Shown: positions 21,704-23,925 of the stretch, in pieces | Position numbering within the stretch: position 1 is the first letter of the stretch | Layout of the letters: the number at the start of each line of letters is the position of its first letter | DNA from: Niabella aurantiaca DSM 17617 | GTDB lineage: Bacteria > Bacteroidota > Bacteroidia > Chitinophagales > Chitinophagaceae | Assembly: GCF_000374125.1 (NCBI RefSeq) | Contig: NZ_KB893643.1 | Coordinates: 255,645 to 319,644, forward strand | Reading direction: 5' to 3' | DNA: 64,000 nucleotides | Made by a program: the position numbers and the translations under genes | The notes under the pieces: model-generated | What the model was told of the DNA's origin: nothing | What the model saw: the letters and a program-made list of their open reading frames with translations, nothing else | Databases searched by the model: none

Positions 21704-21732
21704 TGGTAGACGGATTCCTGGAATTACTACCA
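21704..21732 (-). promoter_or_regulatory. 29 bp operator-like sequence, copy 1
   Basis: It matches 23897-23925 at 24 of 29 positions, and the similarity continues for 11 more bases (9 identical). Ends are inverted, TGGTAG ... CTACCA. It lies 20 bp upstream of the GAACTTTG box of the flavodoxin operon, over the -33 region, where an AraC-type activator would bind. The likely binder is the AraC protein encoded at 23999. Confidence 0.65.
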
Positions 21733-21735
21733 ATA

Positions 21736-22833
21736 TTACTTATCCAGTCCTTTTTGTTGTAACCATTTGGATAACTGATCGGCGATTTGCCCATTATTTA
21801 AATCTGACATGATGAAATGTGTATTGCCCCTAATCCCTATTTCCGGCAAATGAACAATGGTAGCGTCACCGCCATGCGCGTTTACAACTTTTGCCCATTG
21901 CCTTGCGGTGGCCAGCACATTACGCCAAAAGTTAAGCGAAGCCGCGTTGGTTTCTTCTTTGGGTATATAGTCGCCGTAGTAAACCACGATAGGTATTTTG
22001 GTTAATTTCAAAAACTCGTTAAGCGGCACACCTTTTCCACCACGATTCCCTTCGGGTGCTTCGCCTTCAGGAAACGTGAAACCGCCCGGCTCTATGGCTA
22101 CGATAGCCTTTACACGGCTGTTTTGGATAGCCGTTTTCCAACCAGGAGAACCGCCGGCGGAATGCGTAAACAAGATGCCATCACCCGTTCTATCAAAAAC
22201 AGCCGATAATGCGTTAACAATAGTGCCCTCATTTACATTGCCGGTGTTAGGCGTCATCATCCGGTAAAACTGATCCAACGATTTTTCGTCTTTTGGAAAT
22301 TGTACACCTTCGTTAAAACTGGGATACAACCCGATACGAAATTGCGTAAACCAGGTTTGGTCATCAGGCGTTGCTGTGATTTGTCCTGGCTTTGTGGTTT
22401 GTCCTGCATCGCCGCGGCCCGGCTGGTCAACAAGATAAACTCCATATCCTTTTCGTAAGAAAATATCAGCAAAGCCCTCTCTGCCATCGGCAGTAGTTTG
22501 CCAACTGCGGCGGGATTGACCATAGCCGTGTAAGAATACCATTGAATAGCGTTTTGCATTTTCAGGAATCTGGTAAAAAACATCAGCATGGTCGCCATGC
22601 CGGGTTTGCCCGCCCTGCTGTACATTCCACGGCTTTAAGGCATCGAATTCACCTTCACTTTTAACCACCGTACCACCTGCCGAAAACGCCCCTTGCTCTT
22701 TAATGATCAAATTGCCACTTGAATGTGGTTTCGTTGCTACACAAGATGCAATGCCAAATACAAGAATTACCAATAAATAAATACCAGATCGCTGTTTGCC
22801 CATTTGTTTATAATCTGCTGTTTCCCTTTTCAT
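21736..22833 (-). CDS. Alpha/beta hydrolase lipoprotein (esterase-like)
   Basis: A 365-residue protein whose N-terminus carries a hydrophobic segment ending in a lipobox ([11 protein letters not shown], about residues 21-31). Catalytic features: [15 protein letters not shown] (oxyanion loop), [16 protein letters not shown], the nucleophile Ser in [13 protein letters not shown] (about 224), [11 protein letters not shown], and the His in [15 protein letters not shown] near the end. It resembles alpha/beta hydrolases of 330-370 residues common in soil bacteria whose substrates are unknown. It begins 24 bp after the aldo/keto reductase gene, so both form the second operon. Confidence 0.87.
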
Positions 22834-22857
22834 ATTATTAATGGTTACTGTACAGTT

Positions 22858-23841
22858 TTATTTGCCTACTCGTTTTTGTAAATGTTCAGGATACCTTGCC
22901 CCTACAATTTCGATATCTTTCAGCGCTTCACCGATACCCGCCAACTCTTTATTGCTTAGGTGGATATCGGCAGCCCCTACATTCTCCTGCAACCGGCGCA
23001 CCTTTGTTGTGCCTGGAATGGGAACAATCCAGTTTTTTTGCGCAAGCAGCCATGATAATGCAACCTGTGCGGGTGTGGTATTCTTACCGGCGGCAATGCT
23101 CTTTAACAGGTCCACCAGGCCCTGGTTGGCTTTCCTGTTTTCTTCCGAGAATTTTGGAACAATATTTCTAAAATCCGTTGGGTCAAATTTTGTGTTTTCA
23201 TCAATAGCTCCGGTCAAAAACCCTTTGCCCAATGGACTGAACGGTACAAAACCAATTCCCAGCTCTTCGAGCGTGGGGATGATCGCTGTTTCGGGTTCAC
23301 GGTAGAATAATGAATATTCGCTTTGTAAGGCGGCAACCGGTTGCACAGCGTGCGCTTTGCGGATGGTTTCTATTCCGGCTTCTGATAAACCCCAATACCT
23401 GATCTTGCCTTCTTTGATCAAGTCTCCGATGGTTCCCGCGACATCTTCGATGGGCACATCCGGGTCTACTCTGTGTTGGTAAAAAAGATCGATATAATCC
23501 GTATTCAAATACCTCAATGAATTTTCCGCCACCTGACGTATACGTTCCGGACGGCTGTCCAGTCCTTTGGATGCATCTCCGTCTTTGAAACCAAATTTCG
23601 TGGCAATTACCACCTGGTCTCTAAAAGATTGTACCGCTTTCCCCAGAAGAACTTCATTTCCTCCCTGACTATAGGCTTCGGCGGTATCAAAAAAGGTAAT
23701 GCCCAGATCATAGGCTTTCCTGATCAGGGAGACGGCATCAGCTTCCGCTGTAGCAGGCCCATAACCAAATGTCAGTCCCATACACCCTAAACCTAATGCG
23801 GATACTTCCAGTCCGCTATTTCCCAAAAATCTTTTTTTCAT
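22858..23841 (-). CDS. Aldo/keto reductase
   Basis: A 327-residue (beta/alpha)8 NADPH-dependent oxidoreductase of normal length. The catalytic tetrad is visible: Asp in [14 protein letters not shown] (about 52), Tyr in the same segment, Lys in [13 protein letters not shown] (about 83) and His in [13 protein letters not shown] (about 124). The C-terminal cofactor loop is [18 protein letters not shown]. Such enzymes reduce aldehydes and quinones. It is divergent from the AraC regulator at 23999 and preceded by operator copy 2, an arrangement like yqhC with the aldehyde reductase genes yqhD and dkgA in E. coli. Confidence 0.93.
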
Positions 23842-23868
23842 TTTTTATGCTTTTTTAATTGAATAGTG

Positions 23869-23876
23869 CAAAGTTC
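23869..23876 (-). promoter_or_regulatory. Candidate -7 box of the aldo/keto reductase operon
   Basis: Minus-strand GAACTTTG 27 bp before the ATG at 23841 and exactly 20 bp from operator copy 2. The context GGAACTTTGCAC parallels AGAACTTTGTAT before the flavodoxin. Confidence 0.55.
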
Positions 23877-23896
23877 CGATCTGAAAATGAGGCAGT

Positions 23897-23925
23897 TGGT
23901 ATACAGATTACTGGTTTTACTACCA
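23897..23925 (-). promoter_or_regulatory. 29 bp operator-like sequence, copy 2
   Basis: Begins TGGTATACAGATTACTGG and ends TTACTACCA on the plus strand; 24 of 29 bases equal copy 1. It sits between the aldo/keto reductase and the AraC gene, so it could serve activation of the former and autoregulation of the latter. Confidence 0.65.

Follow-up and report, generated by a model that had tools for sequence, protein, structure and literature searches.

In this study, we focus on a regulator of the AraC family and on two operators that it would control in Niabella aurantiaca DSM 17617, within a stretch of 64,000 nucleotides (contig NZ_KB893643.1 of assembly GCF_000374125.1, positions 255,645 to 319,644 of the forward strand) that we call the window. 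Two matching sites, one in front of a flavodoxin operon and the other between an aldo/keto reductase (AKR) operon and the araC gene (23999-24892), are very probably the binding sites of this protein, which would in this way switch on two groups of detoxification-type enzyme genes. More precisely, we give a probability of roughly 0.86 to the reading in which the AraC protein binds both sites, likely as a tandem dimer, and drives both operons by class-II activation. The evidence is computational: the site is conserved, it accompanies one clade of AraC proteins, it keeps its spacing to the promoter, it is built in tandem, its bases covary with the protein, and the protein has an AraC-type fold.

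Binding, the dimer on the DNA, activation and the inducer are the steps that we infer. The AraC dimer would lie head to tail on a 21-bp direct repeat, with C-A/C-GTAAT as the core of the half-site, so that the promoter-proximal half-site would cover the -33 region, with a weak -7 box (GAnnTTTG) at a distance of 20 nt. The protein would from there recruit RNA polymerase to the AKR operon and to the flavodoxin operon, perhaps as a response to reactive carbonyls or other electrophiles.

Two matching sites in one genome

Site 1 occupies positions 21704-21732 (TGGTAGTAATTCCAGGAATCCGTCTACCA on the minus strand) and site 2 positions 23897-23925 (TGGTAGTAAAACCAGTAATCTGTATACCA, also on the minus strand), and they are identical at 24 of 29 bases, or at 33 of 40 when they are extended to 21704-21743 (operator 1) and 23897-23936 (operator 2). 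The octamer GAACTTTG is found at 21676-21683 and again at 23869-23876, and the gap to its own site is 20 nt in both cases. The two 29-bp sites, both identities and both 20-nt distances had been given in the first-pass annotation, which also placed the start of araC at 23999 and an operon on the minus strand behind each site (flavodoxin; AKR), and they were all reproduced on recount.

Such a pair could in principle be a chance likeness, or the trace of a local promoter duplication without regulatory meaning. The window holds two same-strand pairs of 29-mers with at least 24 of 29 identical positions (inverted pairs being uncounted), one of them unrelated to the operators, and the 29-bp identity alone is therefore not decisive. 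However, the two operators form the only same-strand pair of the window that reaches 33/40 and also the only one with an identical 8-mer 20 nt beyond, and three Markov-1 shuffles of the window gave no pair at 33/40 and none with an identical 8-mer at that distance. Allowing up to 3 mismatches, the consensus of both sites is found twice in the window, for 0 expected from 100 shuffles, and these two are also its only matches in the whole genome (5,927,438 bases), where the reversed consensus at the same tolerance has 0. Given this uniqueness in the window and in the genome, and the phylum-wide conservation in relatives, chance or local duplication was rejected, and we consider its probability to be negligible.

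Conservation of the site with its probable regulator

The first-pass annotation had staked its proposal on the 29 bp being kept in relatives, and the site is indeed kept with the araC orthologue across the Bacteroidota. We gathered 110 loci, 80 from named genomes and 30 from a sample of the family Chitinophagaceae (the window and some duplicates included), with 63-100% protein identity; according to the refined matrix, a site stands on the divergent strand before araC in 107 of them, mostly at 73-79 bp from the araC ATG. In the named-genome loci, the 40-bp matrix finds 80 araC-proximal sites and 17 other sites above a score of 14, and nothing above 10 on the reversed DNA of the same loci (1.197 Mb). 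This matrix was trained at araC genes, and three tests were run outside the training circle.

A degenerate 38-bp pattern, with up to 3 mismatches, was found in 34 of 48 family genomes with an orthologue (E<=1e-100) and in 0 of 99 others, and its reversed form matched none of the 147. The phylum sample has the forward pattern in 16 of 23 genomes with an orthologue and in 1 of 273 without (Fisher 1.8e-22 for the family and 3.7e-20 for the phylum, values that ignore relatedness, a few genomes being in both samples). Both the E<=1e-100 line that defines an orthologue here and the 51.5% identity line mentioned below were set after seeing the data. Fourteen orthologue-bearing family genomes have no site at 3 mismatches or fewer; 12 of these exceed 15 with the 29-bp or the 40-bp matrix and G063 scores 14.2, G137 being left out. 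The genus sample has the site in 6 of 17 genomes, 5 of these with an AraC match at E<=1e-100. Among 60 further AraC homologues, hand-picked from the matches listed, the site scores above 15 in 20 of the 24 with 52.3-63.8% identity and in 0 of the 36 with 39.7-50.5%, and the reversed control gave 0 of 60. Finally, ten plasmid loci (46-64% identity) lay outside the training: seven of them have a site scoring 17.6-60.3 and a box 20 nt away, two (L198 and L203) have no site and one (L201) is at control level. Six of the seven scoring sites are at the usual place, and the last one, in L199, precedes an operon containing araC. In this Spirosoma oryzicola plasmid, the operator (2980-3019) stands before an MBL-hydrolase, araC, a carboxymuconolactone-decarboxylase-family (CMD) gene and an AKR gene, so that araC would be inside its own regulon.

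The window AraC has 297 residues, with two helix-turn-helix (HTH) motifs in its C-terminal domain, as in the AraC/XylS family, and its predicted structure has an N-terminal regulatory domain like those of RhaR and AraC, as in the AraC-type ligand-binding and dimerisation subclass. It is 98% identical to a protein of a genome of the same genus (G150), and a 93% copy is found in N. drilacis (record NZ_FMZO01000005.1). All 31 aligned orthologues have Cys56 and Cys171, and in a 19-row set including distant homologues Cys171 is kept in 19 of 19 and Cys56 in 14 of 19. Each half of the regulatory part contains one of these residues (window positions 24164-24166 and 24509-24511). In the AraC-family protein RclR, the oxidation of cysteine switches the regulator on, according to the excerpts available from PMC7464077; by analogy, and because of its two invariant cysteines, the window AraC may possibly be a thiol or electrophile sensor.

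Two observations on relatives can be added here. In L156 (genome G151, same genus), the araC frame has an in-frame TAG, no AKR gene lies behind, the araC-side site is weak (25.6) and the flavodoxin site is good (44.9), and this copy of the module appears to be in decay. AraC homologues of 43-56% identity are also present in four unannotated faecal records named 'Bacteriophage sp.' (MT836583.1, MT839347.1, MT839071.1 and MT838731.1), which may be bacterial contigs filed as phage.

A tandem operator, its promoter and the recognition helix of its probable regulator

After the removal of near-duplicates (93 of 110 loci left) and of three loci without the site (L010, L021 and L031), 90 loci remain, in which the conserved block covers about 38 bp, from about -10 to 28, and is wider than the 29 bp of the first-pass annotation. 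Their consensus is AATCAGTAATAwTGGTAgnAAAnCmGTAATCTgTATAcc, where CAGTAAT is repeated 21 bp on as CmGTAAT. At an offset of 21, the loci match themselves at 9.87 of 19 positions, against 2.4-7.5 for the other offsets from 10 to 30, and among 2000 column shuffles none attained the direct-repeat column score at 21 bp (25.6) at this same offset, and 6.6% did if every offset is allowed. In the window, operator 2 carries CAGTAAT at 23928-23934 and at 23907-23913, and operator 1 carries AAGTAAT at 21735-21741 and CAGGAAT at 21714-21720, with the same 21-bp period. The proximal half-site of operator 1 is CAGTAAT in its two nearest relatives (L154 and L155), and its position 16 is a G where both have a T, which predicts a weaker binding of operator 1. 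The alpha/beta-hydrolase gene ends at 21736, and its final codons overlap the far end of this operator.

The first-pass annotation had read the site as a palindrome, TGGTA...TACCA, to which one activator would bind symmetrically. Both ends are well conserved and their five pairs match on average at 3.7 of 5, but inverted repeats are at chance when compared with column shuffles (best score 14.6, p 0.61) and the 21-bp direct repeat is not; conservation also reaches 10 bp past the TGGTA end and takes in the central GTAAT, and residue 226 of the protein, as detailed below, tracks two bases in the same orientation. This symmetry thus gives way to a direct repeat, and we regard a palindromic operator as very improbable. 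A variant operator (..CTGTATTCTGTATAAA), also spaced by 20 nt, goes with another subgroup of AraC proteins (57-60% identity), which carry Gln at 275 in LGF(K/R)YQQHF; it is seen in five homologues (L033 at about 4693-4732, L045 at about 11519-11558, L220, L224 and L225).

The tandem direct half-sites, 21-22 bp apart, are those expected of an AraC-type class-II activator, and the placement of the proximal half-site at the -33/-35 element, at a fixed core-promoter spacing, likewise points to this class. Indeed, a GAnnTTTG-type box is found 20 nt from the site in 77 of the 90 loci, at 19 nt in 4 and elsewhere in 3, and was not found in 6. In the available parts of PMC6847099 and PMC7366714, Bacteroidota promoters have a -7 element TAnnTTTG, revised to TAHHTTTG, and a less certain -33 element TTTG. 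Compared to this housekeeping promoter, the GAACTTTG box of the AKR operon (23869-23876, minus strand) and that of the flavodoxin operon (21676-21683, minus strand) retain A-11 and the TTTG, but they have a G in place of T-12, and the proximal half-site occupies the place of the -33 element. The likely -7 box of araC itself (TACTTTTA, 23974-23981, plus strand; TAAwTTTG in relatives) fits better. At position -12, the target boxes have a G in 51 of 90 loci and a T in 18, and the araC box keeps its T in 83 of 90. Weak target boxes and a canonical araC box would fit activator-dependent targets beside an independently driven regulator.

The AraC protein could also be an inducer-released repressor of the operons, or the site could serve mainly for the autoregulation of araC, since the distance from operator 2 to the araC start varies little (mostly 73-79 bp). 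Against this, operator 1 and 22 of the 30 other sites without an adjacent araC keep the 20-nt spacing to the box of an enzyme operon, and it is the target boxes that are weak, with their G at -12, and that of araC that is canonical. We therefore hold either version to be unlikely. Within the main reading, the nearly fixed distance between operator 2 and the promoter of araC makes some autoregulation possible next to the activation of both operons.

The link between protein and site was examined in 147 distinct AraC proteins with a site, through 6969 residue-base tests left uncorrected. The strongest association joins base -5 to residue 226, the second residue of helix 225-236, which is the first recognition helix of the predicted structure; this residue is also linked to base 16, 21 bp away. 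Proteins with Asn226 have T at -5 in 116 of 126 cases and T at 16 in 117 of 126, and those with another residue have T at -5 in 0 of 21 (C in 15, G in 6) and T at 16 in 7 of 21 (C in 7, G in 7), with Lys226 going along with G at both bases in 3 of 3. Residue 226 changed 15 times on a tree from which the helix columns had been left out, and in 12 greedily chosen independent pairs the expected base change was found in 9 for base -5 and in 7 for base 16, with 0 opposite (sign tests 0.004 and 0.016). In 51 homologues without a site, Phe228 is replaced by Leu in 39 and Lys273 by Glu in 37. Other high-ranking tests join residue 241 to bases -2 and 18, and residues 248, 262 and 254 to base 8; we set these aside, residue 241 lying outside the recognition helix and being linked to bases that do not show the 21-bp distance.

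Several points weigh against activation by this AraC protein as set out above. The score is too low in the three excluded loci among the 110 and in 4 of the 24 further homologues with more than 51.5% identity, and the reversed 38-bp pattern matched 2 of 296 phylum genomes. The G at 16 of operator 1 breaks the covariation rule for Asn226, and well-supported branches alone leave 4 pairs, none of them opposed, which is not significant. In G158 (90% complete, 240 contigs, all of its 38 candidates scored), a site precedes an AKR gene and there is no AraC match at E<=1e-60, and G275 has a site and no AraC match at E<=1e-80 among the matches listed, at most 8 candidates being scored per genome; the 3 kb surrounding the G275 site contain DUF4440-, cupin- and hydrolase-like stretches and no AraC. 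These two genomes, like the many AraC paralogues present in such genomes, would suit another regulator binding the sites, with araC merely linked to them. However, the co-occurrence of site and orthologue, the absence of the site in all 36 more distant homologues and the covariation of a recognition-helix residue with site bases argue otherwise, and we regard this account as very improbable too. The claim that one AraC-family protein acts at both sites over the -33 regions is thus supported, from sequence comparison, by conservation with the orthologue, clade specificity and covariation, and so is the two-operon regulon proposed for this genome.

Probable target genes and relation to known regulators

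Behind operator 2, and divergent from araC (plus strand), operon 2 is made of the AKR gene (22858-23841) and an alpha/beta-hydrolase gene (21736-22833), both on the minus strand. Operon 1, also on the minus strand, begins behind operator 1 with the flavodoxin gene (21004-21666, whose start may be the ATG at 21654) and continues with genes for a dienelactone-hydrolase-like alpha/beta hydrolase (19900-20961), a DUF4440/SnoaL-like protein (19440-19925), a CMD protein (18679-19494, its true start being probably downstream of the listed TTG) and a mandelonitrile-lyase-like cupin (18170-18661, 3 bits below the NCBIfam cut-off).

In 105 loci, 132 sites score above 18, of which 102 adjoin araC and 30 do not. 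Twenty-two of these 30 precede genes for an AKR (8), a flavodoxin (6), a DkgA-like AKR (4), a CMD protein (3) or the small subunit of a molybdenum hydroxylase (1); near-identical pairs (L154/L155 and L040/L041) are counted among the 30, and the site of L161 lies next to an AraC of 40% identity. The named-genome loci extend no further than 8 kb around araC, and the target signal therefore partly reflects the content of the cluster; in loci fetched from other places (L158, L159, L160, L162, L164, L170 and L171), the sites precede AKR or DkgA-like genes. The two-operator layout of the window recurs in L154 and L155, and a second site before a flavodoxin or CMD gene is found in Pedobacter (L040, L041), Chryseobacterium (L061), Flavobacterium (L075) and Pontibacter (L095). 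A DkgA-like reductase lies behind 34 of the 132 sites, the reductase of the window belonging to another subfamily. As the products are reductases, hydrolases, flavodoxin, CMD and cupin proteins, a response to reactive carbonyls or electrophiles is suggested, in which these enzymes would reduce or hydrolyse such compounds.

In the searched literature on AraC-type regulators with these enzymes, hosts and motif types, most subscription papers lying outside the search, this regulator and its operator are undescribed. To our knowledge, few regulators of the Bacteroidota outside sugar use have a defined operator. Here, the regulator, its operator, the promoter geometry and the targets can all be read from comparative sequence, so that binding, inducer and specificity become testable together. 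The 38-bp pattern or the 40-bp matrix can be used to annotate the regulon in many genomes, and, as few tools exist for this phylum, an operator-bearing promoter could be of use as an inducible switch.

The closest architectural parallels are the AraC-type rhamnose regulators of Bacteroides, Bacillales and Enterococcus, whose direct repeats have a 21-bp periodicity in the available text of PMC3870299, and MtlR, with blocks 22 bp apart in that of PMC4514859. As far as these extracts go, they share with the window AraC a direct repeat just upstream of the core promoter and a DNA-binding domain with two HTHs, and the predicted regulatory domain of the window protein resembles those of RhaR and AraC; they differ from it in half-site sequence, protein clade and targets, which are here reductases and hydrolases instead of sugar genes.

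The closest functional parallel is YqhC of E. coli, described in the accessible portion of PMC8262776 as the activator of yqhD-dkgA. The window AraC was ruled out as its orthologue, since 25 of 80 residues (31%) are alike, in the HTH part only, and it has no AraC_N domain (PF06719); the window cluster is also without a DkgA-like gene. In both cases, however, an AraC-family protein is encoded divergently from a reductase operon (that of YqhC being an aldehyde-reductase operon that it activates, as far as this portion tells), and DkgA-like reductases are frequent targets in the relatives of the window AraC (44% to DkgA in L052). We tentatively put forward, as an idea with less than even odds, that this AraC clade is the sensor of an undescribed, Bacteroidota-wide reactive-carbonyl/electrophile regulon, with one tandem operator, targets that form a modular set (reductases, hydrolases, flavodoxin and molybdenum hydroxylases), and a code that repeatedly co-changes at residue 226 and bases -5 and 16, which would make it the counterpart of YqhC in this phylum.
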